Source: a virus | IMG/VR virus record: IMGVR_UViG_3300013010_000036 | Span: 1 to 35,909 of that record | DNA length: 35,909 nt | Direction: 5' to 3' (one strand) | Shown here: positions 4,702 through 33,330 of the stretch, in pieces | Layout: each line of letters starts with the position of its first letter | Numbering within the stretch: position 1 is the first letter of the stretch | Notes under the pieces: generated by a model | Told to the model about the DNA's origin: nothing | Database searches by the model: none | What the model saw: the letters and a program-made list of their open reading frames with translations, nothing else | Program-made: the position numbers and the translations under genes

Positions 4702-4709
4702 TATTTATT
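4702..4709 (-). promoter_or_regulatory. Late-promoter box AATAAATA overlapping the stop of the giant gene
   Basis: The minus strand reads AATAAATA, 17 bases upstream of the ATG at 4684. It overlaps the TAA stop of the giant gene (4705-4707). It matches the NATAAATA late -10 pattern and is the only such box near this gene start. If real, it starts a three-gene unit for the small protein and both fibres. Confidence 0.5.
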
Positions 4710-7700: not shown

Positions 7701-10700
7701 ACCCAGTGCCTGCATTAGTCACTTTAATACTAGTAATTTTTCCGTAGCCTAAGTATGCTTGTGCTGTTGCACCAGATCCACCGCCGCCTACTAGAGTAAC
7801 AATCGGTTCGAATGTAAAGCCACTGCCACTATCGCCTAATTGTATTTCGGTTACTTGGTATCCGTGATTGTCTTTCCAATTTTTACGTGGATAAGCAGTT
7901 GTGTCTAAGTTTTCTTGTTGTATTTCGTTATCTACAATAATTGCTCTGCTTGCATCAATCGTGTTGGTTACACTATTATAAACTGGCGATAAATCAAAAT
8001 CACTAATACTAGTATTAGTTGGGTCTGTAGCTGTATATTCGCTTACAAATTCTCTTATCTTTGTTGAATATGGCTTAAACTCTTGAACAAAATCTTGATA
8101 GTTTTCTAAATTATCATTATTAAATGTTATATCTTGTTGATTTAATGTTTCTTTATTATGTTTTGCTTTTACGAAACTAGTTTTAAACATCCAATCAACT
8201 GCCTGCTGTTCTGACATTACATAACGAAGTGCTGCCATAAACAACTGATTGTATTCAACTTCTAAGTCTCCTACAAAGATATTGTCTCTAATAGTTTCAA
8301 GTATAATTCTTAATTCAACACTAGGATTGTTGTCGTAAAAATTGCTGTCAAAACTACGGTTATCAAATCCTACAGTATTCTTTGAATAGTCATATAATGT
8401 ATCTTTAAATTGTATTGTGCCGTTCTGTCTGCCGATAGTAGCATAGTTAACTGTGTAATCTTCGCTATCTTGTGCATCTATTTTTTGAAGCAACAACCAA
8501 CCACCACTGCCTACGTTTTCAATCTTAACAACATTGCCTATGTTGTTATCTAGGCTAGGTAGCAAATACGACCCTTTAATTGTGTCGTTAATATTAGTAA
8601 ATTGATTGAAGCCGCTAGCATACCAATCTACATAATTCCAGTATGCATCTACATTATAACTTTGAAGCTTTCTTCTATACCAAACACTGTCTACAGAATT
8701 CCAAGAATACAATGCCCATTTATCTTGTATAGTATTATCAGCATTGACTAATACTGTAAGAGGTCTAACAGATATTGTAGTTGCGTTGTCATATCCGCTA
8801 CCTGCGTTAGTAATGTTTACGCTTGTGATTTGGCCTAGATTATTAATAATTACATCAAACTCTGCTCCGGTTCCTTGGCCGTTAATTTTAAAACTAGGAG
8901 CAACTTTGTAGCCTCGGCCTGCATCTGTGATATTAACTCTAGAAATTCTGCCATTAGTAATCACAGGTGTTAATATTGCTTGCGTAATTTTATTTGTACT
9001 AACAAAAGTAAGTTCTGCTAGAGTATCAATTACAACATCGTATTCTTGAGATATCAGTGTAGGCGCATTATCTTTTTGTGTTAGTTTAGAAATATCGTAT
9101 TCATCAACTATAAGAGTACTAGATAATTGTAGATTTATTCTTTCAATTGTCTGCTTTAATGCTTCAAATCTATTTGCAAACATACTTTGTCTTGGACGAT
9201 TTTGTACACCATAACGATTTTTAACAGTTATTGTTGGATCTGGCACAGTTCTATTGTTGTCGTCAAAACCTATTAGACTGTCAAACCATTTACGCTCAAT
9301 ATCTGGATCAGGCTTACTTGTTTTTAAGCCGTCTGATATTAATTTGTATTGACTGTGTAAGTTTTGCACTTTCTTAGGACCAGTTGAATATTTAATGTTT
9401 AACACTAGGTCATCATTGTCAACAAATGTGTCAAAATTGTTAAGAACAAATTTGTTACTGGATAATAAACTTAGGAATGGATATCCCTGTGTCCGAGGAT
9501 TTTCAATTAATGCAGTAATATCACGAATACTAAGTTTTCTATTTTCCATTACAGGAACTGTAACTTTATTAACTACCCAGAAGTAATACTTGTTGCTAAA
9601 TGTTTTGCTTACTTCGTCGTATATAATTTTTGTAGAATATCTAGCATCACCAAATAAACTTATTCCGCTAATAGTAGCAGCAAGTCCGTCGGGTGTATCT
9701 GCAACACTGTCCCAGATACTTGGAATAAAGTTACTTTCGACCCATTCAAATACATCAATTCTTGCACCAGGTGTTAATTTATTCCAGTTATTTTTTTGGA
9801 AGGTAGTTGAACCTTGATATGCATGTGTAAATTTAGCACTTGATATATTCCACCATACTTGACCTACATGCTTGTTAGTCCACGCTCTGTTCGGATCAAC
9901 TGAACTATCCGAAGTATTACCAGTATTGTATACTGCTGGATCAAATGGTGTTTTAAATGTAATTTCTTGATCCGCTGGTCCAGCAATTTTACCTTGTACA
10001 GGATCAATGTAATCAATATAGCTTACAATACTGTTTTCACGCTTGTTATATAAAAATGCGCCGCGGATATTATCTACGTCTACTGGTGTAATGCCTTCAC
10101 TAACAACGTTCCATGCAAATGTGTTTTTATTTTTTCTAAAATCAAGTATCTGACCTTTAGTACTATCGTTAAACTGATCTGGCATACCAATGTAAACGTG
10201 GTTGCCGTTTGCATAAATGTTCTCACCGAAAGTAGTCTGTGTTAATGGATAAACAAATTGCTCTGAATATATTAAACTATTGTTAACTGTTTCGTATACA
10301 TAAACAACGCCTCTGTCAAGTTTTACGTTTGCAAAGTTTGTAAACTCCCTATCAAAAGTAGTTGCAGTAACTTCAATATCAGAATACACACTAACGTCAA
10401 ACGTAGTTGGAATTGTTTGATCTCCATTTAGACTCGATACTACTAAGTTATCAGTTCCAAAGTCCAATCCAAATCCAAATCCTTCACTTTCTTCATTTTG
10501 TGGAGGTGTTAGTGTTTGTGTTAGTACAAAAGTGCCATCGGTTTGTGTATAAACATAAACGACACCTTGATTTATTTTGTTAGTATCTACTAACATTGAA
10601 CTAATTGCAATTTGTGTTCCTAACGGATTTAATACAACTTTATCTGCCCATGCAGTAACATTATCAGGTGCGGTTATTATTTGATCTACTTGATATTGAT

Positions 10701-13700
10701 CGCCGACTGCACGATAAATTACAAGTTTTGTATTTGTTGTACTATCAAGTTCTGCTTCGTGTTGTTTACTTGTTACAACTAGTACTTGTGCATCGTCACT
10801 GATGTCAAAGCTCTTACTAAATTCCAATATGTTTTCAATAGGATCAAATACATCCTCATCATAGAACGCATTTGCAGTTAAGTTCGGCAAATACCCTAAG
10901 TAGTCAACATCTGTAGTAATTTCTGTCCATGAATTGTTTGACGTACTTGGAATTACTGCATTAGTTGATACGTTAGTTGCTGCTTTCCATAATGCATTGT
11001 CTTGTGCAACAATATTATCTTTTTTATAACTATATGTGTTATCAAATACACCACGATAGTTTGAATCTTTACCGTGACTCCAACTTATTTTAGTCCAATA
11101 AATCGGATCAACAATAACATTTTGTTCTGTTGTTGTTGCTTTGCGGCAAAGATAATAATCGTCTTTGTATATTACAATATCGCCGATCGCATATGCTGTT
11201 AGTTGGTATTCTCCTTGGAAACTATCAGTTGCTTTAGTACCATGGCGGAATATTTCTATTGCACCAGGGTGTGTTCTTGTTTCAGTAGAATCGTCACCGG
11301 GCAAGACGACACTATCACTGCCAACTAATAGTGTATAATAGTTTCCAGTTTGAACTATTGCGACGTTGGAGCCAAAATACCTGTTTGCTGCTCTATATTC
11401 TGATGCAAAAGTGTGTTGCAGTCTATAAGTGCCATCATTTAATCTTCTATAAATTGCAACTGCGCCTTCGTTAGACAACCCTGAGCTTGTTCCTGTTTTT
11501 TCAGCAGGAATATTATAAATTTGTGTATAGTCTTTGTTTAAACTAAATGGAGGATTAGGCAGTCGCTGAATTCCTGCTTCAGTTGTTTCAGCAAAGAACC
11601 AGTATTCTTCGTCAACGATTTTTGGAGTTTCAACAATATTAAAATTACTTGTGTGTTCAAACACTACTAATTTACCAATAAGCGAAGTTCCAAGAACAAT
11701 GCTGTTGTTTATATCAGTAACTGTGCCAATAGTACGGTCAGCGTCGGTGGCGCCACGTAAACTAACATTTGCTTTCCTGCGGATTTGGAAGCGACCAATA
11801 TTAGACTGTTCTAACCAATCACCTGTTAGTACCTTTAAGTAAACTCTTACATCGTTAAAGTTACGTTTTATAAACACAACTTCAGCACTACTTGTAGTAA
11901 TAGATGTTAGTGCGAGCCCACCTTGTCCATTGTTAGGAAACTGTATGTCTTCAATTATGTCACCTACTTGCGGTTGAAAGGCAAATCCCTGGAAGTCAAA
12001 TTCAGTTAGTGTAAAGTCAATATATCCATCCCATAAATCAACTATTGTTTGTTGTTTATTTAGAATGTCGTATGTGAAGCCAGCACTTGCAACGTCGATT
12101 ACTCTATTATCTAGATTATATAAACGAAAATCCTGTGTTTGTCCTATTGTCAGTGTATCGCTAAATGTTTTGCCTACTCTAGCTATCCATTTATTACTTA
12201 GAAGATCTACTTCTGCACCATCTTGTGCATCTGCACTAGACGGATCGCCGCGATATGATAATTGTTCAATATAACTTGCACGATTTTTTTCAGTTACAAA
12301 AACACCAATTGCGCCGACTGTATCTTGAATGTTATAATAGTTATTAAGAGATCTTAATTGTATTCCCGGAGTTACAAGATCAGTATCAGTATTAGACAGT
12401 ACATCAGCATATACTAAACCTCTTCCTGCATCGTAATATGTACCGTTGTTCGAATACGTCGGTGCAGCAATCATCCAGTAGCCTCCGATTGCATCACTTG
12501 TAGCATAAGTCGATTCTTCTGTATAAAATCCTACAAAATCTAATTCGTTAATAAACAATTCGCCTGTAATAGCAAAGACACCGTTTGTTTCTTTAAGGTA
12601 AACAACTGCACTATCTCTTCGAGTTCCTACATATGCTACTTTAGCACTACCTGTATCAGATGTTACAATGCTACCTACAACTGGCAATGAAACAAATGTA
12701 TCAATATAAAATACATGATCAATCTTTTCTTGGATAATATGATCTTGACTTATCCATTCAGGAGTTATTTGTGGTATGAGGCCATCAAAAGGCAAATATG
12801 CATCTAGTGTAGGGTATGCATAACTGCGTCTGTTCCAGAATAAATTAGCAGTATCGCCTGCTGATGTGCCGATATACATATCTTTTGGAGCACGTACTAA
12901 TAAATGAGTAATGTTACTATTGTTTAAACCAGAATCACCTGCAACTAATAAATTTAAAGTTGTACTATCTGCATCAGCAGTACTTGCAATATTTACATAT
13001 GTATCGAATGTACTAAATGGTTGATTTGTAATTTGTGGCAGAATTTCTCTGTTTGCTTTCCACAAACTTTCTCTATAACGTACAATATCATTTTTAATAT
13101 ATGTTGCATCAGGTTGGAAATCAAACGTGCTTAGTCCTGTGCTAGCATCTGTTTTATATGCTAGTCGAGTCTTAACATTGCTTGCTTGCGGAATACCTGC
13201 AATTAAATATTCGCCGTCTGGCGATACTGCAATGCTTCTGCCAAAGTCTGCATTAGTAATATCAAACAATTCTGCAGGACTATTTGTTAGAGTCCATTTT
13301 GAAGATGCTAGGTCAGCTTCAAAAGATTCAGAACTAATGTGTTGCACTGCTGACGTGTAGTATCTCGGTATACTATTAATAGTATATACTATTTTTATAC
13401 CTACTGTATAATTAGTATTTTCTTTCCAGCGGTCAGCGTCATCGAGTGTAATTTCTTGGTCTAATACTAAGTTAGACTGTTCTCTGGTTCTTCGATATAC
13501 AGAAATTTTACCATTTAAATCATTTGCAGAAGACACAAACAAATTAGTATTATTTTTTGTTACTGCTACACTATTACTAAACCCTTGATCCGTACTGTCG
13601 TACTCTGATGGATTTATAATTTCTTGTGAATTTAGATATACAGGATTATTTTCTAATACTGCCCATTCAGAATTATATGTATCTATCCATAATTTTTGTT

Positions 13701-16700
13701 TACTGTATATGTCTTGCGCTGTTGCATTATTAATTCCAACAACATCGTCTACTCTTACAGTTCTTAAAATTGATACGGCGAACTGTTCTTCTTCAAAATC
13801 TGCTATTTCATTATCTAGCGGAACTCTTATACGGACAGTGTTTAAATTAATGCTATCAATTTCATATAATCCGTTAGCAGAATACGCTTGAGCATTTCGA
13901 ATGCCTATGTAATCTCCAACATCTAGTATTCCATTTGCCCATTTGTCTAATGTAATTTCGACCAATCTTAAATTGTTATTAGATACTTCAGTAATAAGAG
14001 TATCCGCACTAATGGCATTTATATTTGCGTGTACTAGTTGTTGAATTGTCCAAGATTTATTATCTGTATCTGTTACCCATATTGTTGCACCTAAACTAAT
14101 TTGATTACTATCTATTGCTGATAAATCTAAGAAACTATTGACAATAAAGTCTACATCGTCTTCATTCGCATATCCTGACGTTCTAATATACTCGTTAGTT
14201 AGCGATTTAGTTGGCAACGGTGCATGTGCATAATTTGCAGGACGATCATATACTTCGTTTGGTAGTATTCTATAAATCTTATCAAAGTTAGTTGCAGGTA
14301 AAGTACTTACAAGTTCAACTGCTTGCGGAGACTCTTGCATTTTATCTTGCTTTAAGTTGTATTCGACTTGTTCAACATCATCGACTGCTCCGTAACGACC
14401 AACTTGAATTGCCCACTCTTCGTAGAACTCTAAGTTATCGGCTGTATTACCTAGTGCATCAAACAATTTAGTAAACACATTCATTGTGCCTTTGTCTGCA
14501 ATTGCGCCTCTGTAGAATTTAAACTGACTTACATCATCATTAATAATGTTAGCAAGGTACTGACGCTTTTGATATCCTATCAAATGCTGTGCCATTTTTT
14601 GCTGTTCAGTATCAAAGCTATCTGAATCTAAATCATAAAAGTCTGTAAACTGTGTAACTCTATAATCAAAGTTAGTCATTAGCTGTGACACTGGCTTTTC
14701 GTTTAGCTGATACCAGTTGTTAGAATTAAAGTTTTGTGAACCAGTAACATTAATAGTTGCTACATAATAATATTGTTTATATTTTACAATATCGCCGATA
14801 CTATAATCTTTCCACTGTGACCAATCTGTAAATGACGCATCGTCATATACAAATCCTGGAATATTTAATCCGCCATTCCAGTTGTCGGATCTGTAACCAT
14901 TTACTTTAATACGCTCTTGTCTGTATCCAGTGCTTGGATTATATATTGCATCGTTAAAATCTGTTGTATTATCTATTAACACAACATGTTCTTTTTGTAC
15001 TAACGGTAATGCTATATGATATAATCCTTCTTCAGTTCCAACAGTTTCAATTCCAAAATTATTTTGATCTCTTAGCAAACTATTAAATTCTGAATCTAAG
15101 AATAATCCATCAGCTTTAAAAATGTTATATCCATAGAAATCATCTTTAATATTATCAACTATATAATAGTCTTTCTTAAACTCAAGTAAATTAGCGCCAG
15201 GGCTAATTGCAATTAAAGAACTATTTGCCCAACCTTGTGTTGTCCAGAATAAGAACTGCTTTGCTGCTTGATTCCAGTTTTCAACTTCATTAGAGCCTTC
15301 AATCACATTTTCAAAGCTAAATCCAATTTCTTGTTGTCTTACACTATATCCTAATATAAAGTCAACAACATCTTGTGCTGTGTCCAAACGGCTTCCGTAT
15401 TGCAGAGTCTTAGTTTCAGTAGTAACAAAATTTTTCTTAAATTGTGCTATTCTTCCTCCAGTTAATGGCAATGCAGGAAGTTTAACTATATTATCAGTGT
15501 CAAATGCTCTACTACTAGTAAACGAAGTAATAACTCTATAATATGCATTATTATGTAATAACACTTCTCCACTTATATAAGATTTATTATTGTCCCATAG
15601 AATTGCCTTTTCTGATATGCCTCCAACAGTAACAGTAGATGCCGATGAACCATTAAATGGTTCATAATATTCAAAATAAGGCTTTTCTAAATTATATCCT
15701 CTTACAATATATCCTAGCTCTGTTTTTTCAATAATAATACCACTATAAACTACTAGTTCAGCAGGACTACTTGTATTCAAGAATACTTGATAGTTTTCTT
15801 GGGGGACAAAAATTCCACCTTGGGTAGTAGATTGGACAGGAGATCTGCTATCGAGTATTAAATTAAATTTTTCTTTACTTGTAAATCCTGCAATTTTTAT
15901 ACCTATTTGATTTGTAATACTTGCAAGATCATTTACATATCCATCATATACTGTTAGAATATCACTTGCTACAAGATTATAGATATAGTTTACTAATCCA
16001 GATGTATTAGTACGGATAGCTGATTGAAATGTATTTGGTAATTTTAAATCCTTAATTACAATTGGAGAATTTGTATCAACGTTTGTCCACTGATTTGCTA
16101 GATTCTTAGATATTCTAGAAATATCAAATCCTAGTCCCATTGTTTTTGCAGGCTTGTTTAATAACATTGCAGTTAGTACAGCAAACGGGTACTCAGAACT
16201 TTTGCGCCATGCATTTTCAATTGGTGCTTGGTCTCCAAATTTAAAATTTTGTGTTGCACTTTGTATTTGGAAGTCTTTGGCATATTTACTATCTAATGGT
16301 GATAGTAATTTTCCGGTGCTATCGACTGGTATATAGTTAGTTAATCCAGGGCGGGCATATTTTAAATTAATTCTAGTATTTTTAGGATCTGCAATGCGGC
16401 CGGCTTCTAAGTCTCTCCATAGCACTAAGTTGTCACCTGTGTAAGGTGCCGGTCCGTAAACAGTATTCCACCAACTTGGTTTTGTTGTTAATCCTAACAT
16501 TTCCCAAGGATGGCTGTGTGGACGATCAGTATCAAATGCTGTTACATATAAACCTCTCCAGAAGCCTGGATTTGTATTTCCGTCCGGAGAAGTAGTGTTT
16601 GAATAATTAAATGTCCAGTTATTATTTCTATTATAGAATGCATTTTCAGTATAAGATGCATTATTTAAGTTTTGCTGCAACCATTGTTGGAAATCTCCTA

Positions 16701-19700
16701 ACAGTGTGTTGTCTATTTCAGTTTTAGTAAATTCATTTGTTCTAAATTCGCCGCCGACAAATGCATTAATATCTAATCTATCAGTTGAATATTCAGCTTT
16801 AATATTATTAAAAATTCTTTTTTCTAATTCTAATAATAATTCATCTCTAAAATCTTTATATGCCTTGATATAACTGCCATCGTGACCTCTAATAAATGCA
16901 ACACCAATTGGATATTCATCTATTTCAATATTGTCAATGCCAGCAAGTATTTCATCAGCAACAGGAATGTAAAATAGTTTATTCATCCCCGTAAATGTGT
17001 AAGACTTTGATAATGCTCCTAAACCAGCTGCACTCTTAGTAGTATAAACAGGATAGAACCAACCTCTAGTACCAGTTGCACTATCTTCTCCGTATACTTT
17101 AAATGGCCCAGTCGTCTCTGGCTCTGCTGCAAGTACAGCATCATCAATAGTTAATTCAGGATAATACTTAGGATATAAGCCTAATTTAGTCGGTGTTGGT
17201 GCAACAAAACTTCCGTCAGTAGTTTCGTATTCATGTATTTCAATTACATCATTTTCTACTTGTCCGGCACTAATTGAAATATATCCTGTTAGATTAAAAT
17301 TATAATCTTTAATATTTGTTAATTGTTGACCATTTAAATATACCATTACACTTTTAGTTGATAGTGTAGTTAGATTAAAATTGTCGGTAATTGGATAATC
17401 TGTTACTCTAGAATCTAATACTTTATATTCAATTTTATTAGATGCTCCTGTAGCAAGCATATCTGAAAAGTAAAACGGCTGTGACTTTATTTTATCTGCA
17501 TTTATTTCTCTTAATATAAGATCTACGTGAGTTTTAACAGGACCGTCATAGCCCATGGTATTAGCAGTATCTAAAAAAGTTTTCTTAAATCTTGAATATT
17601 CCTTCTTAGAATATTTTAATGCTTTAACAATATTATAATCTTTATTAGTTACGTGATATAACGGTAGATTAATTGGACCGCTATGCTTTACAAAACGCTT
17701 ACCAAATTTATCAAGATCGCCTAGATCTCGTAGATTACTTGATCCTAAATAGTTGCCTGCATATCCTGGAATATCTTCTAGCATACTATCAACATGATCT
17801 ATAACTTCACCAAGTGTAAATTGATTAACATCGTCGTTAAGCGGGTTACGTTCTAAATTGTAGGGGAATTCATAATAACCGTTAGAATTTTTTATAGTTT
17901 TACTATCTGTTTTAATTTTAATAACATCATTTGCTATTAAATCTTTTGTAAATGTAATAACTGCATTTGTATTAGTTTTATCAATTGTATAATCAGTATT
18001 AATTAATTTTAATTTATTATTAACAAATACAACTACTTTTAAATCAGAAATACTACTTGAATTATTATAAACATTAATTTCAAAATTATTAAGTTGGATG
18101 TCAGTAGCAGCATATTCTTGTATAACATACTGTTTACTAATAGTTGGTGTACTACTAAATCCATTTACATATATAAATTTAGAGAGTGAACTATATTTCT
18201 TTAAATATCCGCCGCTAATTCCTTGTGTAAATAACTCAGTATCAGTTTGATAAGTGAATGTATCATTTAATAAATTAAAGTCAAATACAATGTCGCCTGA
18301 ATTATTAATAGATTTGTAATCTAATGCAAATCCTAGTTCATTATCTACAACACCTTCTCCTACTGCATACGAAAATAATTTAGTACCGTTAAATGTAGTC
18401 GAACCATAATATGTTTCATCGCTATAACTATTACCGTTTATATCACAAACAGCAAATCTCGGTGGCTGATTGCGTATTGTTTTTTCTTGTGCTGCTGTCC
18501 ACTTTTCTCCGTGGTAGTGATAACTTTTACCTGCATTTTTTACACCTTGTGTAACTAATACAGTTTCGAGATCAATTGGAGTAGTATCAGTAGTTTCAAT
18601 TAAACTAATTTGTCTGTTGTTTCCAATTTTAATAAATTTAACTTGATATATTTTTCCACTTACTAATACGTCTGTGTCTTCTGTAAATAAGATACGCATA
18701 TTATCAGCTAAATTAATACCATCGATATTATATCCTGATTGTCCTTCAATAGTACTAAAAACATCAGTTGTATACGTATCGATTAAATCAACGTCTTGTT
18801 TAGCATATGCTCCAAAATTGTCTAGTTTCAAGCCTGCTTCAAATTCTATAATAGGACGGTTTGCACGACTAGATTCATCTACGTCACGCGGCAAATTATT
18901 ATACTTGAAGCTTTTTAAAATTACATCTTTATGATGCCATCTGTTATAACGACTCCATGCATTTCTATCAGGACTTGCTCTATTAACAACAATATAATCT
19001 TTATCTGCTGCATACGCCGATGCATCACTAAAAGGTAATGTATCAAAGTTGTCACTATCAAATGCTATCTGTACGTTATCACTGTATGCTGCTGGGATAA
19101 TTAAATCTTGATCTTTGATTAATTTAATCTTGTCGCCGACACCTTCAACATACCAATCATTAGTATCATATTCAATTGGTAGTACATCGCCTTGGAATCT
19201 AATTTTCATTCCGTTAGACAATTCAACACCATTTGCACTTAGATATGTTTTCTTACCTAAAATTTCTTCTTGTACATTAAGGAAGGCGTTTTCTTCAATA
19301 TCATAAATTCTAAATAAACCGCTGGTATCTACTGCATTTTTACTAATATAATATAATCTGTCAGGCGCATTTAATGGAATAGTAAATTCAATTGTACCTT
19401 TTTCAATATACGCAATTGCTACTTGTTCACCTTCTTCACCTAATTTACGAATACCGTCTGGATAAAGAGTTGACACATTATCATCGGCAGCAAATGTTAC
19501 ACTGCCACCGCTTGGTAGAATAATGTATTCTCCTTGGTCATATTCATTACCATATAATGTTGCATCAAATAATCCCTCGGCACGTAACCCTTCTGATCCT
19601 GCTGTTAATATTGCAGTTCCTGGAGTAAATGTTCTGCTAATAGCAATGGCTATTGGATGACCAGGAGTATCAATTTCAAAACGGTATGTTTGACCGCGGA

Positions 19701-20295
19701 ATAATTTTAAGTTAGGATTGCGTGTTAGACCATCATTAAAAACATAGGCAATATTGTCACCTTGATCTTCTGTAGTAACAGTATATGTACTAACAATATC
19801 TCTGCTTTGTCCTCTTACAGGAATACTAATAGGGCCATTAGGCATCCAGTAGTATTCGCGGAAGTTTACAAACTTATCCCAATCAATATTTGGGTTCCAA
19901 GCATATGTTTCCTGGCTGTTTAACCGACTGTGATTAGCTGTGTTTGCGCCGAATACGCCGAGTTGGCCCATATAGTCGTTGTAGTCTTTGTAGAAAGTTA
20001 CGTTGTCATAGTTGTCTTTGATAACTGTTGCAGGTTCTAACTGATAGTTAGTTCTATCAGATGTTACATCGTCAACATAGTTGTCTGTAGTTTTGTATGC
20101 TTTAGCAGTTGTTCTACCATAATAACCATTAATCTTTTCAGCAACGCCAGGCTGTATAAGTTGATCAAGTGTACCTTGCAAAAACTTCTTATTAGCTTGT
20201 GTTCTAAAGAACTTAGGTAAAAAATCACTCGAAGTAATTTTGTTGTTCTGTCCCGGAACAGGTAGTGCGCTTTCGGTTTGATCATTCTTAGCCAT
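4705..20295 (-). CDS. Giant multi-domain virion structural protein, probable baseplate wedge or fibre component
   Basis: An uninterrupted frame of 5196 residues, about 570 kDa at 110 Da per residue. Order of visible parts: a helical N-terminus (SDFLPKFFRTQANKKFLQGT, ~20-45); a cupredoxin-like beta region (LKLFRGQTYRFEIDTPGHPI, ~190-285); strand repeats of the V-x-V-N-G type (~750, ~980); a Trp/Pro-rich block (HSHPWEMLGLTTKPSWWNTV, ~1250-1290); at least six short GDIV-x-Y...YY...W modules resembling chitin-binding (CBM5/12) folds (~1565, 1822, 2290, 2395, 3030, 3080); FG-GAP-like repeats (~2235-3385); I-T-N-A-G-x-G-Y repeats (~3780-3845, 4145-4210); and a C-terminal run of V-x-V-x-G fibre repeats (~4275-5110). 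Its ATG overlaps the gp6 stop (TAATG), with GGAGG upstream, suggesting translational coupling. Position matches T4 gp7-gp11, so a wedge or host-contact role is inferred. No T4 homologue is recognised. Confidence 0.85.
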   Translation of the reverse strand: MAKNDQTESALPVPGQNNKITSSDFLPKFFRTQANKKFLQGTLDQLIQPGVAEKINGYYGRTTAKAYKTTDNYVDDVTSDRTNYQLEPATVIKDNYDNVTFYKDYNDYMGQLGVFGANTANHSRLNSQETYAWNPNIDWDKFVNFREYYWMPNGPISIPVRGQSRDIVSTYTVTTEDQGDNIAYVFNDGLTRNPNLKLFRGQTYRFEIDTPGHPIAIAISRTFTPGTAILTAGSEGLRAEGLFDATLYGNEYDQGEYIILPSGGSVTFAADDNVSTLYPDGIRKLGEEGEQVAIAYIEKGTIEFTIPLNAPDRLYYISKNAVDTSGLFRIYDIEENAFLNVQEEILGKKTYLSANGVELSNGMKIRFQGDVLPIEYDTNDWYVEGVGDKIKLIKDQDLIIPAAYSDNVQIAFDSDNFDTLPFSDASAYAADKDYIVVNRASPDRNAWSRYNRWHHKDVILKSFKYNNLPRDVDESSRANRPIIEFEAGLKLDNFGAYAKQDVDLIDTYTTDVFSTIEGQSGYNIDGINLADNMRILFTEDTDVLVSGKIYQVKFIKIGNNRQISLIETTDTTPIDLETVLVTQGVKNAGKSYHYHGEKWTAAQEKTIRNQPPRFAVCDINGNSYSDETYYGSTTFNGTKLFSYAVGEGVVDNELGFALDYKSINNSGDIVFDFNLLNDTFTYQTDTELFTQGISGGYLKKYSSLSKFIYVNGFSSTPTISKQYVIQEYAATDIQLNNFEINVYNNSSSISDLKVVVFVNNKLKLINTDYTIDKTNTNAVITFTKDLIANDVIKIKTDSKTIKNSNGYYEFPYNLERNPLNDDVNQFTLGEVIDHVDSMLEDIPGYAGNYLGSSNLRDLGDLDKFGKRFVKHSGPINLPLYHVTNKDYNIVKALKYSKKEYSRFKKTFLDTANTMGYDGPVKTHVDLILREINADKIKSQPFYFSDMLATGASNKIEYKVLDSRVTDYPITDNFNLTTLSTKSVMVYLNGQQLTNIKDYNFNLTGYISISAGQVENDVIEIHEYETTDGSFVAPTPTKLGLYPKYYPELTIDDAVLAAEPETTGPFKVYGEDSATGTRGWFYPVYTTKSAAGLGALSKSYTFTGMNKLFYIPVADEILAGIDNIEIDEYPIGVAFIRGHDGSYIKAYKDFRDELLLELEKRIFNNIKAEYSTDRLDINAFVGGEFRTNEFTKTEIDNTLLGDFQQWLQQNLNNASYTENAFYNRNNNWTFNYSNTTSPDGNTNPGFWRGLYVTAFDTDRPHSHPWEMLGLTTKPSWWNTVYGPAPYTGDNLVLWRDLEAGRIADPKNTRINLKYARPGLTNYIPVDSTGKLLSPLDSKYAKDFQIQSATQNFKFGDQAPIENAWRKSSEYPFAVLTAMLLNKPAKTMGLGFDISRISKNLANQWTNVDTNSPIVIKDLKLPNTFQSAIRTNTSGLVNYIYNLVASDILTVYDGYVNDLASITNQIGIKIAGFTSKEKFNLILDSRSPVQSTTQGGIFVPQENYQVFLNTSSPAELVVYSGIIIEKTELGYIVRGYNLEKPYFEYYEPFNGSSASTVTVGGISEKAILWDNNKSYISGEVLLHNNAYYRVITSFTSSRAFDTDNIVKLPALPLTGGRIAQFKKNFVTTETKTLQYGSRLDTAQDVVDFILGYSVRQQEIGFSFENVIEGSNEVENWNQAAKQFLFWTTQGWANSSLIAISPGANLLEFKKDYYIVDNIKDDFYGYNIFKADGLFLDSEFNSLLRDQNNFGIETVGTEEGLYHIALPLVQKEHVVLIDNTTDFNDAIYNPSTGYRQERIKVNGYRSDNWNGGLNIPGFVYDDASFTDWSQWKDYSIGDIVKYKQYYYVATINVTGSQNFNSNNWYQLNEKPVSQLMTNFDYRVTQFTDFYDLDSDSFDTEQQKMAQHLIGYQKRQYLANIINDDVSQFKFYRGAIADKGTMNVFTKLFDALGNTADNLEFYEEWAIQVGRYGAVDDVEQVEYNLKQDKMQESPQAVELVSTLPATNFDKIYRILPNEVYDRPANYAHAPLPTKSLTNEYIRTSGYANEDDVDFIVNSFLDLSAIDSNQISLGATIWVTDTDNKSWTIQQLVHANINAISADTLITEVSNNNLRLVEITLDKWANGILDVGDYIGIRNAQAYSANGLYEIDSINLNTVRIRVPLDNEIADFEEEQFAVSILRTVRVDDVVGINNATAQDIYSKQKLWIDTYNSEWAVLENNPVYLNSQEIINPSEYDSTDQGFSNSVAVTKNNTNLFVSSANDLNGKISVYRRTREQSNLVLDQEITLDDADRWKENTNYTVGIKIVYTINSIPRYYTSAVQHISSESFEADLASSKWTLTNSPAELFDITNADFGRSIAVSPDGEYLIAGIPQASNVKTRLAYKTDASTGLSTFDFQPDATYIKNDIVRYRESLWKANREILPQITNQPFSTFDTYVNIASTADADSTTLNLLVAGDSGLNNSNITHLLVRAPKDMYIGTSAGDTANLFWNRRSYAYPTLDAYLPFDGLIPQITPEWISQDHIIQEKIDHVFYIDTFVSLPVVGSIVTSDTGSAKVAYVGTRRDSAVVYLKETNGVFAITGELFINELDFVGFYTEESTYATSDAIGGYWMIAAPTYSNNGTYYDAGRGLVYADVLSNTDTDLVTPGIQLRSLNNYYNIQDTVGAIGVFVTEKNRASYIEQLSYRGDPSSADAQDGAEVDLLSNKWIARVGKTFSDTLTIGQTQDFRLYNLDNRVIDVASAGFTYDILNKQQTIVDLWDGYIDFTLTEFDFQGFAFQPQVGDIIEDIQFPNNGQGGLALTSITTSSAEVVFIKRNFNDVRVYLKVLTGDWLEQSNIGRFQIRRKANVSLRGATDADRTIGTVTDINNSIVLGTSLIGKLVVFEHTSNFNIVETPKIVDEEYWFFAETTEAGIQRLPNPPFSLNKDYTQIYNIPAEKTGTSSGLSNEGAVAIYRRLNDGTYRLQHTFASEYRAANRYFGSNVAIVQTGNYYTLLVGSDSVVLPGDDSTETRTHPGAIEIFRHGTKATDSFQGEYQLTAYAIGDIVIYKDDYYLCRKATTTEQNVIVDPIYWTKISWSHGKDSNYRGVFDNTYSYKKDNIVAQDNALWKAATNVSTNAVIPSTSNNSWTEITTDVDYLGYLPNLTANAFYDEDVFDPIENILEFSKSFDISDDAQVLVVTSKQHEAELDSTTNTKLVIYRAVGDQYQVDQIITAPDNVTAWADKVVLNPLGTQIAISSMLVDTNKINQGVVYVYTQTDGTFVLTQTLTPPQNEESEGFGFGLDFGTDNLVVSSLNGDQTIPTTFDVSVYSDIEVTATTFDREFTNFANVKLDRGVVYVYETVNNSLIYSEQFVYPLTQTTFGENIYANGNHVYIGMPDQFNDSTKGQILDFRKNKNTFAWNVVSEGITPVDVDNIRGAFLYNKRENSIVSYIDYIDPVQGKIAGPADQEITFKTPFDPAVYNTGNTSDSSVDPNRAWTNKHVGQVWWNISSAKFTHAYQGSTTFQKNNWNKLTPGARIDVFEWVESNFIPSIWDSVADTPDGLAATISGISLFGDARYSTKIIYDEVSKTFSNKYYFWVVNKVTVPVMENRKLSIRDITALIENPRTQGYPFLSLLSSNKFVLNNFDTFVDNDDLVLNIKYSTGPKKVQNLHSQYKLISDGLKTSKPDPDIERKWFDSLIGFDDNNRTVPDPTITVKNRYGVQNRPRQSMFANRFEALKQTIERINLQLSSTLIVDEYDISKLTQKDNAPTLISQEYDVVIDTLAELTFVSTNKITQAILTPVITNGRISRVNITDAGRGYKVAPSFKINGQGTGAEFDVIINNLGQITSVNITNAGSGYDNATTISVRPLTVLVNADNTIQDKWALYSWNSVDSVWYRRKLQSYNVDAYWNYVDWYASGFNQFTNINDTIKGSYLLPSLDNNIGNVVKIENVGSGGWLLLQKIDAQDSEDYTVNYATIGRQNGTIQFKDTLYDYSKNTVGFDNRSFDSNFYDNNPSVELRIILETIRDNIFVGDLEVEYNQLFMAALRYVMSEQQAVDWMFKTSFVKAKHNKETLNQQDITFNNDNLENYQDFVQEFKPYSTKIREFVSEYTATDPTNTSISDFDLSPVYNSVTNTIDASRAIIVDNEIQQENLDTTAYPRKNWKDNHGYQVTEIQLGDSGSGFTFEPIVTLVGGGGSGATAQAYLGYGKITSIKVTNAGTGYTSAPTVVISGSQLESGTPAKATAVLGNGVVRSSTVKIKFDRTSGTFTFSTLAKTETFTGTGFENRFFLEWPMDLNTKKVSVYVDNILQLRSKYTYENIKNNDKLYTREKGKIIFTTPPKLDAVIRVEYNLPLSMLSAEDRIKFAYAPTAGMYGSELTQLMTGIDYGGVEVSSFNFDGPAGFDTAPWYTDNWDEFDSTFEDEIFIADGSTVAVQLSAPLESGVVYNLYKQLASDIVPNPNPFVRLDDPNFIAGTPTNVNAITNSITGDGVTDIVYVQDLEIALLDGDVFVVRKTTSDGATTPDATSYDTALSGGDLAYTSARGIAAEEIIVDGDGFVTPTTSSGPEEIVPGQVLDTLDIKVFTRDSAGQGIINSQSYIMDSTLVYDLGVTPNSSDAVIVKVANVILPQTDYTINWAANTVTLDTAIVGAELSIVTVAQGTQNILDFGKLIGDGSTTEFETIVDWETSATVYVSIDGVQQTVVAFKSETTPKTVIRFDEVVASGAIINYTVFSADEQVNYSQITKDTFAGNGADTVFVLANSPLYAIPTEHNILVKVNNKILNAGYNIQYTIPANSQREFPLEIFQMPAGSLDVADIKIFLNGVEITTPLQWRFEIANSSITLTDEVGAPGDLLEMYVITDGDYRLNGTTITLDTAPADSAVIEVIQFTNHDLLDIERINYDVVERTTLIPEDIDYVTYRRTTVGEIALRKPAVDAQYVWVSVNGELLTPSVDYSVTDDRMKVQLVRQPAADDVIDIIHFTAPISKPKFAYRQFKDMLNRTHFKRLETPASTLAQTLNYYDLRIELVDGSSLSEPNKGQNLPGVIFIDGERIEYFVKEENTLRQLRRGTLGTGVKDTYAISTKVFDQNISKTVPYKDRTLAHNTTADGATATFEIGYPVASINEIEVFVGGVRMRKTAIDVFNPLTALDSPEGDTTVVADFTFDAETNAITLLATPAKDIRVTVVKKVGQSWTTFGESLGDTENSIARFLRAATSELPE

Positions 20296-23200
20296 TAGTA
20301 ACTGTAGCCTCCGCCTGTTGTATTTGTATTAGTTGTTGGTGTTGATACACTGCTCGATATTCCTGATGTTATGCCAGTCGATACACTGTTAATTACTGCA
20401 CCGCTAGCTTGTAGATTAGTTGCTGTTAGTTGATCAATTGTTTCGATGTCACTCACCTTAGCTGCACTTGCAAATATTTCATCTGGCTCACTCTTTATTT
20501 CAAATAGGCTACCAAACGATTGTGTAGTTTGGCGCGGTACTATTAGTATACTTACCAGTTTTGGAGACAGCTGGTTTATAATATAGGCACTAAGTTCTTG
20601 GAAGTAAAACGTTTCACCAAAGTCCCAATTTTCAATATCAAAGAACTTATTAATAGCTTCGATTATGTTTGATTTAAGTTCGTTGTCATTAATAACTATG
20701 CTAGCATTTTTAACAATCTTAAATTTAACTTGTAGATCAGGAGCTGCTTTATCGCCAAATAGTATTTTATATTTTGCAGGATGATAAATTACTTCATCGC
20801 TAATACTTTTTATTTTGTTTATTTCGCCGCCATAACTTCTAAACAATTCGTCATTGCTAGGCGGCATTGGTCTAACTCCTCGAGAGCCTGTAATAAATTG
20901 TTTTACTTGTGTATCGTATGTTTTTGATAATATGTAAGTGTCAATAATATTACTTGCACTTGGATCAATTCTATATCCACTGTCTGCAACATGGATGTAA
21001 TGGAACTTTAAGTCTGCACGGCCAAAATATGATTTATAGTCTGTATTAATTGTAGTATTGTTTAATGATTTATTAAGCTTTCTAAATATACCTTCATCGA
21101 TTAGATAAAAAATTTGTCCTTCTAATCGTGTACTATACGGCGCAATTACTGTTTCATTTTGTACTACAATAATTTCAGCATTTGTGTTTGCAAAATACTT
21201 AAAGTCTTCTACGCCATCAGTTGTAGTATATTTCTTTTGAAATATAATTTTATCTGCTGTTGCAATTGCAGTATTTTCTTCGCCAACAATTTGTTCAAAG
21301 ATGTCAGGATCGTCTACAACTCCATCGTCGTCTAAGTCAATAAATTGAACTTGGATTTTTCTGCTGTCTAAGTATCCTTCTACGTCTCTGTATGCATCTG
21401 TAATAGTCCAATTAAAATCTCTAGTAAATGGAGTTAGTTCGCCTGGTTGGCGATTAATATTTAAGATGTCAATCTTATCTCTAACAACTTGCCCTGTTGA
21501 AGGGTCATAAATTTTATCAGCAGCATCAAAGAAGAATCTAATTTCATCTGCACTTTCCATTACATAGCGCAAATTGCGGTATGTAATTGTGTACTTTTCG
21601 CCATCTGTTTTAAAGTAAAGCATCCAACTTGCATCTAAATTTTCACCTGTTATGTCTCCTGCTTTACCAGTAGCAAAGTCGCCAAGAGTATTAATGTCTT
21701 CAGCTAGTACAATCTTCCACTGTCTGTTGTATTGGTCATAACGTAAAGCGAAATCTTTGTATTCAAATGCTTGATCAATTAATTGTGTTTTTATATCATT
21801 AATTAATACTTTAGAAAAATTAGGTATAACTTGTTCTAAAATTGCGCCAGTTGGGATAACATCATTTAATTTTATAGGAGCAATACCGTCTTCGTTAATT
21901 ACTGTTCCATTACCTACAACAGACACAACTTTACACCATTTATATGTAGTTTTACCTAGGTGATCAGAATCTCCGTCATCCATTAGTGTTCCGTCGGGCA
22001 TAAAGTGTTTCCCAGACGGTGCTACAAATTTTAATAGTGTGCCTGCTTCTAATAATCTTAAACTATTAGCAGTAAACGTTCCTACTGTATATGAGTTTCC
22101 GTCTACATCATTAAATAATCCTAATGTCTGATTAGTACTTGTACTTGACTGTGTCCACGATGCATTAAGATCACTAACAATGATTTTTGGATATTTTGCA
22201 AGATAAAAGCTTTGGGCGTTGCTACTTCCTAATATGCCTTCAATAGTATTATATATAACGCCTTCGATGTCAGTTTGTGTTGCAAACGTAAATGACTGCT
22301 TTTCTGTAAATTCTTCTTTGTAAATTACACCATCGTCTGAAAAAAGACTTGTGTTTGAATATTTTCCGCTGGCATCCTTCAAGTCAAAGAAACGACTTAT
22401 GCCGCTACTAATCCTGTTTGAACTTTTAGTCTTAATAATATCTTGACTAATTGCAAGAGGCCCAATATTATAATCTTCTCCTGTAATTAATCTATTTTGT
22501 GTATAATATGTTGCTGGAGCATTTTGTTTAATTTCTGTATCGGTTTCTGATTCTGAACTGTTGCTAATTGTATAATTTAATTTAAGTCCAATTGTAAGTA
22601 CCTGGCTAGTTCCGTTTTTTGATTGGTACGGGATTTCTATACTTACTGTGCTTATTGCACTAGGAGTAATTACACTACGTCTATTATTGCTAGTTCTATA
22701 ATATGTCTTGAAGTTTCCAGCAGGTAAGTTACCAAATACACCATCACTAAAGTTTAAATTAATTCTGTCGCCAACTCTAGTAGTTACTGCAAATACATCT
22801 CTAGTTTTATTAAACAAACTATTATAGATAACATTATTGCCTTCTGTTGAGTCAATCTTTTGCCATTCGTTGCTTTCAAAGCCTGCACTGTTTAATGCAA
22901 ATAACCATACATCACTGTCGTTAATATTTTCAGCATCAATTTGTACTGCTTGATTTGGAGTTGGATTACTTACTGCAAAGTTTCCTGTCTCAAGTTTACC
23001 TTGACGGAAGTGCATAAAGAATCCAGTATTATTCGATCCTGCTCCTTGTCCATCATCTCTAAACAAAAATGCAGGACTGTTGCCTGGCAACGGTGCTTCT
23101 TCCAAAATAGTTTGATCTAAAATATCCGAACTTACAATTTCAAATCGTGTACTCACACCTTCAATGCGCTTAGTAAATGGATAAATTGCTTGTCCAGTGT

Positions 23201-23777
23201 TTGTAGCATTTAAGCGATATTTTTGTGTTTGCACGTCTGCAATCAACGAACTCTTTAACGGATTACCGATTGAGTTAGATAATGGCAATGCTGAATTTAA
23301 AATTTTAGTAAACTGTTCAAAGTAATTTGAATTAGTTTGGTCATTCCACTTAACAGTAATGCCTGCCATGTTTAAACCATTTGAATCTAAAAGATTTTCA
23401 GTTGTTTTAATTGTGTCAAATTTAAGCAAGCCGTTAGCTGCTTGATTACGTCTTGGATTATAAGACAGCATACGTGCTAGACGTAATACACTTTCTCTGC
23501 GCTCTGCTGTTTCAAGGAAGTTTTCACGAGCGTTTAAATCAATACGGAATGATAAGTTTTGCCCAAGGAAAGCAATCATATCAATCAGCGCAAGGTATTC
23601 ACTTGATTCAATGTAATCGTTAAAATCTTCTGGATAGTTTTGACGCAAATAGTTAATCATTGTGCGTCTTAGATTATCAAAATCGTAGCTTTGGAAATCT
23701 GCGTTTCTAAAGCTTTGGTAAATTCTTTTCCAGTCCTCAGCTACTAGTAGCCTTGACTGTCTATCATTTGAAGACAT
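20295..23777 (-). CDS. 6: Baseplate wedge protein gp6
   Basis: The gp6 family forms the inner ring of the contractile baseplate, linking wedges around the hub. The N-terminus is diagnostic: a helical region with RNADFQSYDFDNLRRTMINY followed by SEYLALIDMIAFLGQNLSFR and RLARMLSYNPRRNQ, as in gp6/J-type baseplate proteins. At 1160 residues it is much longer than T4 gp6 (about 660), with beta-rich insertions in the middle. The C-terminal part, near the SEYGGE-like turn FRSYGGEINKIKSISD, carries the conserved wedge fold region and ends in a Ser/Thr/Gly-rich tail. I chose the second ATG (23777): AAGGA lies 8 bases before it, but only 2 bases before the first ATG (23783). A GCTAAATA late box lies 24 bases upstream. 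The downstream giant gene overlaps the stop. Confidence 0.93.
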   Translation of the reverse strand: MSSNDRQSRLLVAEDWKRIYQSFRNADFQSYDFDNLRRTMINYLRQNYPEDFNDYIESSEYLALIDMIAFLGQNLSFRIDLNARENFLETAERRESVLRLARMLSYNPRRNQAANGLLKFDTIKTTENLLDSNGLNMAGITVKWNDQTNSNYFEQFTKILNSALPLSNSIGNPLKSSLIADVQTQKYRLNATNTGQAIYPFTKRIEGVSTRFEIVSSDILDQTILEEAPLPGNSPAFLFRDDGQGAGSNNTGFFMHFRQGKLETGNFAVSNPTPNQAVQIDAENINDSDVWLFALNSAGFESNEWQKIDSTEGNNVIYNSLFNKTRDVFAVTTRVGDRINLNFSDGVFGNLPAGNFKTYYRTSNNRRSVITPSAISTVSIEIPYQSKNGTSQVLTIGLKLNYTISNSSESETDTEIKQNAPATYYTQNRLITGEDYNIGPLAISQDIIKTKSSNRISSGISRFFDLKDASGKYSNTSLFSDDGVIYKEEFTEKQSFTFATQTDIEGVIYNTIEGILGSSNAQSFYLAKYPKIIVSDLNASWTQSSTSTNQTLGLFNDVDGNSYTVGTFTANSLRLLEAGTLLKFVAPSGKHFMPDGTLMDDGDSDHLGKTTYKWCKVVSVVGNGTVINEDGIAPIKLNDVIPTGAILEQVIPNFSKVLINDIKTQLIDQAFEYKDFALRYDQYNRQWKIVLAEDINTLGDFATGKAGDITGENLDASWMLYFKTDGEKYTITYRNLRYVMESADEIRFFFDAADKIYDPSTGQVVRDKIDILNINRQPGELTPFTRDFNWTITDAYRDVEGYLDSRKIQVQFIDLDDDGVVDDPDIFEQIVGEENTAIATADKIIFQKKYTTTDGVEDFKYFANTNAEIIVVQNETVIAPYSTRLEGQIFYLIDEGIFRKLNKSLNNTTINTDYKSYFGRADLKFHYIHVADSGYRIDPSASNIIDTYILSKTYDTQVKQFITGSRGVRPMPPSNDELFRSYGGEINKIKSISDEVIYHPAKYKILFGDKAAPDLQVKFKIVKNASIVINDNELKSNIIEAINKFFDIENWDFGETFYFQELSAYIINQLSPKLVSILIVPRQTTQSFGSLFEIKSEPDEIFASAAKVSDIETIDQLTATNLQASGAVINSVSTGITSGISSSVSTPTTNTNTTGGGYSY

Positions 23778-23800
23778 GTGCATTTCCTTGTTTATTACTA
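23770..23800 (-). promoter_or_regulatory. Ribosome binding site that decides the gp6 start
   Basis: On the minus strand AAGGAA runs directly into the first of two in-frame ATGs, giving a spacing too short for efficient initiation at 23783. The second ATG at 23777 has about 8 bases to AAGGA and opens MSSNDRQSRLLVAEDWKRIY, so I favour it. The alternative adds only Met-His. Confidence 0.6.
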
Positions 23801-23801
23801 A

Positions 23802-23809
23802 TATTTAGC
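23802..23809 (-). promoter_or_regulatory. Late-promoter box GCTAAATA before gp6
   Basis: The minus strand reads GCTAAATA in the 65-base gap between gp6 and gp25, 24 bases before the favoured gp6 ATG. It matches the CTAAATA variant of the late -10 element and shares seven bases with the box at 32353. It would start a unit of gp6 and the giant protein. The rest of this gap shows no hairpin terminator. Confidence 0.6.
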
Positions 23810-23842
23810 TGAAAGGAAAAAGTGCGTATTTAATTTTTAGGG

Positions 23843-31160: not shown

Positions 31161-31460
31161 TTATATTCCTAAAGACGAGCGTAATGCTTTTGGATCTGGT
31201 AGGAAAATCTTAGTGCCAGCAACAAAATCAAACACAGGATCTTTCAGTAAATCTAAATTACGCTGTGCAAATACCCACCATAAATCCTTTCTACCATATA
31301 TAATATGTGCTAATAAATCAGGACGATATGTATATTCAGACGTAATTGTAAATAAAATATCAGTAGTGCTAGATGGAACTGGGCGAGGTTTTAAGATATC
31401 TAAATATCCTCTTGGATTAATTGGTGTATTCAAGTACGGACTTAAATTATTATCTGCCAT
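31161..31460 (-). CDS. 53: Baseplate wedge protein gp53
   Basis: A 99-residue protein of the gp53 family, which closes the wedge and contacts the hub in T4. The recognisable core is YRPDLLAHIIYGRKDLWWVF (47-66) followed by AQRNLDLLKDPVFDFVAGTK and IFLPDP, a LysM-like arrangement found in gp53 homologues. T4 gp53 is about 196 residues, so this is a minimal version containing the central domain, as in many marine relatives. The ATG overlaps the stop of the upstream tube-cap gene by one base (TAATG). The SD is AAGGA about 9 bases away. Confidence 0.88.
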   Translation of the reverse strand: MADNNLSPYLNTPINPRGYLDILKPRPVPSSTTDILFTITSEYTYRPDLLAHIIYGRKDLWWVFAQRNLDLLKDPVFDFVAGTKIFLPDPKALRSSLGI

Positions 31461-32329
31461 TATACAAATCCTTCATTGCCACCAACATGCTTTCCGGCTG
31501 CAAAGTCATTTAAACTAAATCCTGATTGCGAACGTCTTGCATATTGTGGCTGTAATGTAACTGTAATCGAACTTTGTGTAGGAACATAATTGGGCTGTCC
31601 ATTTACTACAGCTTGTATATAATCTACATCTACAGGTAAATCTGTGGTAAAATTAGTAATTACAACTGGTATGTTATTTAAAACGTGTTTTCCGTATCCA
31701 TTTAATCTACAAACGACTGGAGGATTACCTAAAGGATCGCTTGCGCCATAAAACATTTTAGTTGCAGTTCTTAAAAAATGTAAACAGGCAAGCCAATATC
31801 TTGCATCTGCTTCGTTTTCTTGATAAAACTCGCCGGTAATTGTTATTGCATCAACTTGACTACTTTCATATGCATTATATGCATAATTTGTGTGTGTAGG
31901 CTGTAGTTGAGAATAATTTGCACTATGACTTAATAATACTGTAGGATTGAATGGGAATACCATTTTATTTCCTGTGTCCCAAGCAGAGTTTGTATTTGCT
32001 AATCTTAATGGAGCAAGTATATCGGCGTTTGATCCTTCTCCTGATAATAAATCAGGCACACTAATACTAACACGCCAATCACCCGGAGTAGTTGAATTAT
32101 TATTAACAGAATCGCTGATAATTGCTCTCGAAATTGTTCTATTATTAATCGACGAGCCAAAGCCGCCGGTTTCGTTAATAAAATTAGCAGCAAGTTTTCC
32201 TAAAGGGCCAAGGCCACCTAACTTTTGACTAATAGTGTCACCAATAGCACTCTTGACAGCACTCTTAGCATCACTCACAATGCTACTTAGAAAGTTTGAT
32301 GCTGCTTTTTTAATGGTAAATTTTGCCAT
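31460..32329 (-). CDS. Baseplate tail tube cap / tube initiator protein (gp48/gp54 type)
   Basis: A 289-residue protein of the gp48/gp54 type, which sits on the hub and starts polymerisation of the tail tube. Residues 1-60 are helical and Ala/Gly/Lys-rich (AKSAVKSAIGDTISQKLGG). From ~85 a tube-like beta fold follows: GDWRVSISVPDLL, then the characteristic MVFPFNPTVLLSHSANYSQL (123-142) and ITITGEFYQENEADARYWLA (162-181), HFLRTATKMFYG (184-195) and VVITNFTTDLP. T4 has two such proteins encoded side by side; only one is visible here, and I cannot decide which it matches, so no symbol is given. It is the first gene of the late unit, with a TAGGAG ribosome site and an ACTAAATA late box upstream. 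Confidence 0.85.
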   Translation of the reverse strand: MAKFTIKKAASNFLSSIVSDAKSAVKSAIGDTISQKLGGLGPLGKLAANFINETGGFGSSINNRTISRAIISDSVNNNSTTPGDWRVSISVPDLLSGEGSNADILAPLRLANTNSAWDTGNKMVFPFNPTVLLSHSANYSQLQPTHTNYAYNAYESSQVDAITITGEFYQENEADARYWLACLHFLRTATKMFYGASDPLGNPPVVCRLNGYGKHVLNNIPVVITNFTTDLPVDVDYIQAVVNGQPNYVPTQSSITVTLQPQYARRSQSGFSLNDFAAGKHVGGNEGFV

Positions 32330-32352
32330 AATTTATTTTACTCCTACACTAC

Positions 32353-32360
32353 TATTTAGT
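32353..32360 (-). promoter_or_regulatory. Late-promoter box ACTAAATA before the tail tube cap gene
   Basis: The minus strand reads ACTAAATA, 23 bases before the ATG at 32329, with TAGGAG between. It matches the CTAAATA variant seen before gp6. It shares base 32360 with the first -35 box of the rightward promoter, so the two directions are back to back. Confidence 0.65.
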
Positions 32361-32388
32361 TGACAAAATTATGTGTGTATATTATAAT
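32360..32388 (+). promoter_or_regulatory. Sigma70-type promoter 1 for gp55 (perfect consensus)
   Basis: TTGACA at 32360-32365 and TATAAT at 32383-32388, separated by exactly 17 bases, reading toward gp55. All 12 consensus bases match. Host RNA polymerase would use it without phage factors, so early expression is inferred. The expected start is near 32395. Confidence 0.9.
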
Positions 32389-32398
32389 TATTCTTCGG

Positions 32399-32427
32399 TT
32401 GACATTGATACAGTTAGCGTGTATAAT
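32399..32427 (+). promoter_or_regulatory. Sigma70-type promoter 2 for gp55 (perfect consensus, tandem)
   Basis: A second TTGACA (32399-32404), 17 bases, TATAAT (32422-32427), offset 39 bases from the first. The transcript would start near 32434, just upstream of the AGGAG site at 32441. Two full-consensus promoters in 70 bases are very unlikely by chance. Confidence 0.9.
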
Positions 32428-32448
32428 ATAAGTTAACTATAGGAGAGA

Positions 32449-33300
32449 ATGATGCGTCCCAAGAATTATCTTAATAATAAAGACATACTTAAAGAAATAC
32501 ACAAATCAAAAAATAAGTTTAACAGTTATTTAGAACCAGAGTTTGGTCAATATGACATTATTTTATCTGATGTAAGTAAAATTAACCGGCTTACTGTTGC
32601 AGAAGCAAAGCGTAATAAAGCAAAGAAGATGTCATCTGCTGAATACGAGCGCCGTAAAGGTCTTGGTGAGAAGGTTAAACAAGCAGAGTGCGAAACACTT
32701 GCATCTGAAATTACAAAAGAAGAATTAATCTTCCGTGTAATGACATTTGAACACATTCCTGACGAGCCCGGGCGCAAAAAGAACCCTAAAACAGTTGCTG
32801 ATACAAAAGTTAAACTTCCTTTTCCACCGTTTAAGCATTACAAGTACAATGACGAAGGTGAAATTATCCTAGTAGGCAAAAGCCACTGGGAAGGTGGCAT
32901 GGACAATGGCAACTTTAATCACAAGCACGGCAAAGCAACAGACAACCTTGCTATGATGTGGCTAAAACTTGTCGATAGATATGCAACTCGAGGCAATGTA
33001 CGTGGTTACACATACAATGACGAAATGAAAGGGCAGGCTATTTTACAACTTTCACAAATTGGACTACAGTTTGACGAATCTAAGTCAGATAATCCATTTG
33101 CATACTACACTGCTGCTGTTACTAATAGTTTTGTACGGGTTATTAACATAGAAAAACGTAATCAAAACATTAGAGATGATATTTTAGAGATGAACGACTT
33201 ATCTCCTAGTTATACAAGACAGAATCAAGGCGAATGGGAAGCAAGTGTAAAGCGGAATGAAGAAGCACCGTTAACAGAATACACCGGAACCAAAAAATAG
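32449..33300 (+). CDS. 55: RNA polymerase sigma factor for late transcription, gp55
   Basis: A 283-residue homologue of T4 gp55, the small sigma-like factor that directs host core polymerase to TATAAATA-type late promoters with help from gp33 and the gp45 clamp. The sigma region-2-like core is at residues ~165-245: LAMMWLKLVDRYATRGNVRG, then MKGQAILQLSQIGLQFDES, NPFAYYTAAVTNSFVRVINI and EKRNQNIRDDILE. T4 gp55 is 185 residues; the extra length is mostly N-terminal and lysine-rich (residues ~1-120, with an EYERRKGLGEKVK stretch). The C-terminus is short and charged. Two ATGs are adjacent; the second (32452) is better spaced from AGGAG (6 bases versus 3). Two consensus sigma70 promoters precede it, so it is expressed before the late genes it would activate. 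Confidence 0.92.
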   Translation: MMRPKNYLNNKDILKEIHKSKNKFNSYLEPEFGQYDIILSDVSKINRLTVAEAKRNKAKKMSSAEYERRKGLGEKVKQAECETLASEITKEELIFRVMTFEHIPDEPGRKKNPKTVADTKVKLPFPPFKHYKYNDEGEIILVGKSHWEGGMDNGNFNHKHGKATDNLAMMWLKLVDRYATRGNVRGYTYNDEMKGQAILQLSQIGLQFDESKSDNPFAYYTAAVTNSFVRVINIEKRNQNIRDDILEMNDLSPSYTRQNQGEWEASVKRNEEAPLTEYTGTKK

Positions 33301-33301
33301 G

Positions 33302-33330
33302 TTGACAGGTGTCAATAATTACTATATACT
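33302..33330 (+). promoter_or_regulatory. Sigma70-type promoter for gp47-gp46
   Basis: TTGACA (33302-33307), 17 bases, TATACT (33325-33330), one mismatch in twelve. It starts one base after the gp55 stop and gives a leader of about 20 bases before the gp47 start at 33357. The spacer length is the same as in the two gp55 promoters. Confidence 0.85.

Follow-up and report, generated by a model that had tools for sequence, protein, structure and literature searches.

Interleaving of the promoter of a gp55-type late sigma factor gene with a predicted opposing late promoter in a marine phage clade

Introduction

Late transcription in phage T4, initiated by RNA polymerase with gp55 and activated by gp33 and gp45, is the textbook example of a promoter that has only a -10 box. 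Phage lambda offers a case of opposed promoters sharing their DNA, with the mutual exclusion of PR and PRM decided by a repressor. Could a late sigma factor decide between two such promoters, if one of them drives its own gene? The locus that raises this question lies in a 35,909-base viral record (IMG/VR IMGVR_UViG_3300013010_000036). This is a fragment, and we refer to it in its entirety as the window. An earlier note, prepared from the bases alone, described a compact divergent control region. It placed two rightward sigma70 promoters, for the gene encoding gp55, against one leftward late box. It also suggested that gp55 production switches the region from rightward to leftward transcription. 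We followed up these claims by comparison with relatives, collected by two routes: via gp55 and, separately, via the left-hand structural protein. Conservation of the gap itself was counted over 76 distinct gaps among the relatives.

Results

The gap spans positions 32330-32448 (119 bases, 74% A+T). Rightward of it, on the + strand, is a gene encoding a gp55-type late sigma factor of 283 amino acids (32449-33300; start codon at 32449 or 32452), with a ribosome-binding site, AGGAG, at 32441-32445. The naming of this gene as gp55 was upheld by PHROGs (phrog_12791, 4e-78), a sequence match to T4 gp55 (7d7c, 6.8e-9) and the predicted fold. Leftward, on the - strand, a virion structural protein (31460-32329; phrog_12050, 6e-42) heads the baseplate cluster. 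Its AGGAG is at 32341-32345. PHROGs assigns the next gene in the leftward run to a gp53-like baseplate wedge protein. Hence, the earlier description of a "first baseplate gene" is fair for the cluster. The tail and baseplate cluster also contains a single open reading frame of 5196 amino acids (4705-20295, - strand).

The encoded gp55 has a sigma region 2 homologous to that of T4 gp55, as expected of the family. It differs from T4 gp55 in having approximately 125 additional residues ahead of the sigma part (residues ~22-150). AlphaFold predicts these to form a confident domain, mostly with a pLDDT of ~90. In a Foldseek search of the PDB, only the sigma part was matched; the extra N-terminal half had no match.

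Two perfect rightward sigma70 promoters are present in the gap, just as the note had read them. P1 (32360-32388) consists of TTGACA at 32360-32365, a 17-base spacer and TATAAT at 32383-32388. P2 (32399-32427) has the same hexamers, at 32399-32404 and 32422-32427, and the same spacing. Both match the consensus at 12 of 12 positions. Among 200,000 gaps simulated from the dinucleotides of the gap itself, one such promoter arose in 13 and two in none. P2 was found in 10 of 74 distinct gaps, all from the closest relatives; the remainder have P1 alone.

The leftward late box, CTAAATA, is at 32353-32359 on the - strand, with a predicted start near 32347. On its own, the box is weak evidence because TATTTA[GT] arises in 23% of simulated gaps. 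We also dropped word counts as support; neither the T4 box TATAAATA, which is uninformative here, nor CTAAATA is over-represented in the window. Conservation is what identifies the box as real. It is invariant in 74 of the 76 distinct gaps, and a ribosome-binding site follows at 5-11 bases in 73 of those 74. It also has the form of a T4-type late promoter: [NT][AC]TAAATA roughly 12 bases before the predicted start and upstream of late genes. The general late motif of these phages was recovered without choosing a motif in advance. In the window and eight relative genomes, the 7-mer most enriched upstream of genes is ATAAATA (52 occurrences on the coding strand against 8 on the opposite one). 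Of 198 occurrences of this word, 53 precede a ribosome-binding site and an open frame; the figure for most similar A+T words is 0.4-3%. For CTAAATA it is 17 of 217, and 12 of these are at the gp55 gap.

Box and promoter are immediately adjacent. The note stated that the late box shares a base with the first -35 hexamer. This holds only if the box is read in the 8-base T4 register, where position -13 is base 32360; CTAAATA itself merely abuts TTGACA. The abutting arrangement is kept in 74 of 76 distinct gaps, though, relative to the window, four-fold degenerate sites of gp55 are as little as 30% identical. The 12-mer TATTTAGTTGAC, taken from this block, occurs exactly once per genome in 19 of 20 records. 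We also scanned IMG/VR with a 19-mer, making no use of gp55. Of 80 loci recovered, 77 have gp55 directly downstream. At the other 3 the contig ends within 90 bases, after a start codon opening a gp55-like N-terminus. We do not take the constant zero-length junction as proof of coupling, since just one insertion slot is available between box and -35. Elsewhere in these phages, 72% of promoters have C or G, and 11% have T, as the base preceding TTGACA. ATAAATA abutting the -35 would place T at this position. The fixed C of CTAAATA at the gp55 site may thus reconcile the needs of P1 with those of the late promoter.

The 17-base spacer of P1 is unusually conserved. Across the same 71 loci it carries 1.40 bits per position, compared with 0.66 for the control, the sigma70 promoter of the gp47/SbcD-like gene 850 bases downstream (33302-33330, + strand; 11 of 12 consensus). 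The late strand of this spacer has AWMTACNYASWTWW at 10-23 bases upstream of the box, or approximately -35 to -22 from the predicted start. In the window this element is ATATACACACATAA (32369-32382, - strand). We attribute the twofold higher conservation to it. Two other explanations were considered. An RNA-structure reading was set aside because the spacer is upstream of both predicted starts. A palindromic operator, TAGTTGACAAAATTAACTA, was rejected because the right-arm letters differ in most relatives. Two bases in the spacer, 32380-32381, which precede the final T of the spacer region by six and five positions, covary between two states, being TA at 43 and GT at 27 of the 71 loci.

A second late promoter carries the same element. 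The gp6-like baseplate wedge gene (20295-23783, - strand) is preceded by CTAAATA at 23802-23808, with an orthologous box in 69 relatives. At equal distance upstream, at 23818-23831 on the same strand, is AAATACGCACTTTT. We built a matrix from P1 spacers only and applied it to the gp6 promoter in those 69 relatives, which were collected via the gp6 protein. In 61 of 69 the best fit was at offset 0. No other offset had a mean score above -8.6, compared with +4.05 at offset 0. None of 2000 column-permuted matrices reached this score, and 2 of 292 decoy boxes scored at least 6. The two elements agree even at ambiguous positions, with C/G at -14, T/A at -13 and a near-invariant T at -12. Consensus sigma70 hexamers are absent from the gp6 site, which argues that the element belongs to the late promoter. 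One relative (L152) points the same way: it retains box and element, and its sigma70 promoter is further downstream.

Late boxes in general do not carry the element. When late promoters were pooled and scored with a strict matrix, they differed only weakly from decoys (p = 0.03), and it is the gp55 and gp6 promoters, where alone the element is clear, that supply the signal. Two loci (G004 108285 and G007 33451) have an element-like sequence, AATATGCGCACATAAT, shifted upstream by about two helical turns relative to its usual distance from an ATAAATA box; a G+C-rich inverted repeat lies between the two. T4-type late promoters are expected to have no sequence conservation at -35. The gp55 and gp6 promoters do have it and hence represent a variant, rather than a plain T4 late promoter.

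These elements are interleaved. Within 36 bp of the + strand the order is late box, P1 -35, late upstream element and P1 -10. We refer to the leftward promoter, box and upstream element together, as PL. Each of P1 and PL has its elements within the span of the other, so one polymerase should exclude the other. The note had proposed that polymerases on the two sides cannot bind independently. For P1 and PL the geometry fits this proposal and is tighter than was described. The same does not hold for P2, which the late promoter core does not reach. The T4 clamp adds 13 bp to the upstream side of the late footprint (PMC2988020); a similarly extended footprint would reach towards P2.

The divergent layout is also found outside the close relatives. 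PA5oct, RaK2, 121Q, Vibrio 2.275.O, XaC1, Hallingskeid, BF, GAP32 and CBB all have the gene order structural gene, gp55, gp47 and gp46 and, in the gap, an ATAAATA box pointing leftward. Atu_ph07 and Phosso differ in that the structural gene has become separated from the gp55 control region by a nucleotidyltransferase-like gene (cytidyl- or adenylyltransferase); the late box persists, now ahead of this gene. In all, eleven cultured jumbo phages retain the divergent late box. Together with the conservation in relatives, this gives good support to the proposed early/late layout. The spacing differs between groups. From the box to the start of the gp55 promoter's -10 there are 26-28 bp in seven enteric or Xanthomonas phages and 23 in the marine clade. 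Atu_ph07 has an exact TATTTAGTTGACA, once in its genome, and no -10 at 17 bases from TTGACA. The corresponding segment of this Agrobacterium phage (L214 2393-2501), TATTTAGTTGACAAATTAACTA, is almost identical to the marine block and likewise has no properly spaced -10. In a freshwater clade the sigma70 -35 of the gp55 promoter is ~40 bases from the late box. The intervening space is occupied by a conserved late element particular to the clade, ATAAAARYA...TTTAT. Three genomes of this clade have a second, similar pattern at a distance of 6-7 kb, just ahead of gp6.

Discussion

The region is a real, conserved regulatory region and a variant of T4-type late control. Mutual exclusion of P1 and PL is likely, judging from the order of their elements. 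On balance, we favour a model in which gp55 turns the interleaved pair from rightward to leftward transcription and so dampens its own expression. Early in infection, host sigma70 polymerase would use P1 and gp55 would be made. As gp55 accumulates, RNA polymerase carrying it would read the box and upstream element of PL, drive the baseplate cluster leftward and exclude P1. With P1 shut, the supply of gp55 would fall. The start sites and the dependence of PL on gp55 are predictions of this model, as are exclusion and the change of direction with shut-off of P1. The last step, negative autoregulation of gp55, is its weaker part, because P2 lies outside the late core and the promoters of the freshwater clade are ~40 bases apart. 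In this phage P2 may keep gp55 expressed and so bypass the shut-off. Moreover, P1 may fall silent late simply through displacement of sigma70 from core polymerase by gp55.

How might the upstream element be read? We suggest, tentatively, that jumbo T4-like phages have a bipartite late promoter. Its -35-region element would be recognised by the extra N-terminal domain of gp55, or by another phage factor. Threading the gp55 promoter through such a late promoter could then make both the change of direction and self-limitation direct. A competing account is possible, though less likely than not. Here the element would be an operator, bound by a separate phage regulator at the gp55 region and the gp6 promoter, and no part of the late promoter. 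Its confinement to these two promoters, when most late boxes do not have it, would fit an operator. So would the behaviour of T4 gp33, which touches solely the DNA backbone upstream (PMC7892883). However, the distance from element to box is exactly fixed at both promoters, and the element is where a sigma -35 element would lie. This suggests contact within one polymerase complex.

Returning to the interleaved switch, its geometry could also reflect mere economy, an explanation that we consider possible but doubtful. On this view the gp55 gene, with gp47 and gp46, borders structural genes by chance, and a short gap must accommodate a promoter for each side. Overlap would then have no regulatory role; as in T4, replication, together with competition between gp55 and sigma70 for core polymerase, would govern the change from early to late. 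The arrangement of box and promoter does vary by clade (0 bases apart in marine, 3-5 in enteric and ~40 in freshwater phages), and P2 could bypass any block. Against this, the promoters of the marine clade have stayed overlaid through deep divergence. In the seven cultured phages, too, the -10 stays within 26-28 bp of the box, though gap lengths elsewhere vary widely. Finally, it is very improbable that CTAAATA is a chance word or by-product of the -35 flank, with the leftward genes transcribed from elsewhere: such a box is common in simulated gaps, and outside the gp55 site CTAAATA rarely precedes a gene, but its invariance in 74 gaps, the ribosome-binding site close by in nearly all of them, the [AC]TAAATA in the same place in eleven cultured phages and the equivalent box predicted for Aeromonas phage Aeh1 (PMC1524935) all argue otherwise.

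The component promoters are of known kinds. As in T4, a -10-type box, [AC]TAAATA, precedes late genes, a gp55-type sigma factor is encoded and the late promoters have no recognisable sigma70 -35. The difference is the conserved element at approximately -35 to -22 of two late promoters, a region without conservation in T4 (PMC2988020, PMC7892883). In Aeh1 the predicted late box is CTAAATA, starting at -12 (PMC1524935). The C form is general in that phage, whereas here ATAAATA is general and C is fixed at the gp55 site. CBB and GAP32 have the same divergent gene order. For these phages, an ATAAATA late motif before structural genes was predicted, along with a separate promoter class (TGAAACG/TATA) that includes gp55, Porf_244 (PMC5259590). 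The relevant passages treat the promoters separately and do not describe opposition or overlap. Both phages have a different -35, which stands 5 bases from the box. Neither the opposing overlap nor any upstream late element was described in the literature that we searched, which covered a minority of subscription papers.

The proposed autoregulatory gp55 switch is plausible. Unlike the lambda PR/PRM type, the proposed decider would be a sigma factor, encoded by one of the two transcripts. Interleaving would be a compact way to build a one-way early-to-late switch without a repressor. A second conserved element at two late promoters in a large marine clade, with a version of its own in a freshwater clade, makes the choice among late promoters by gp55 relatives directly testable. 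Phages with a related layout can be cultured, namely the 121Q type on E. coli and RaK2 on Klebsiella.
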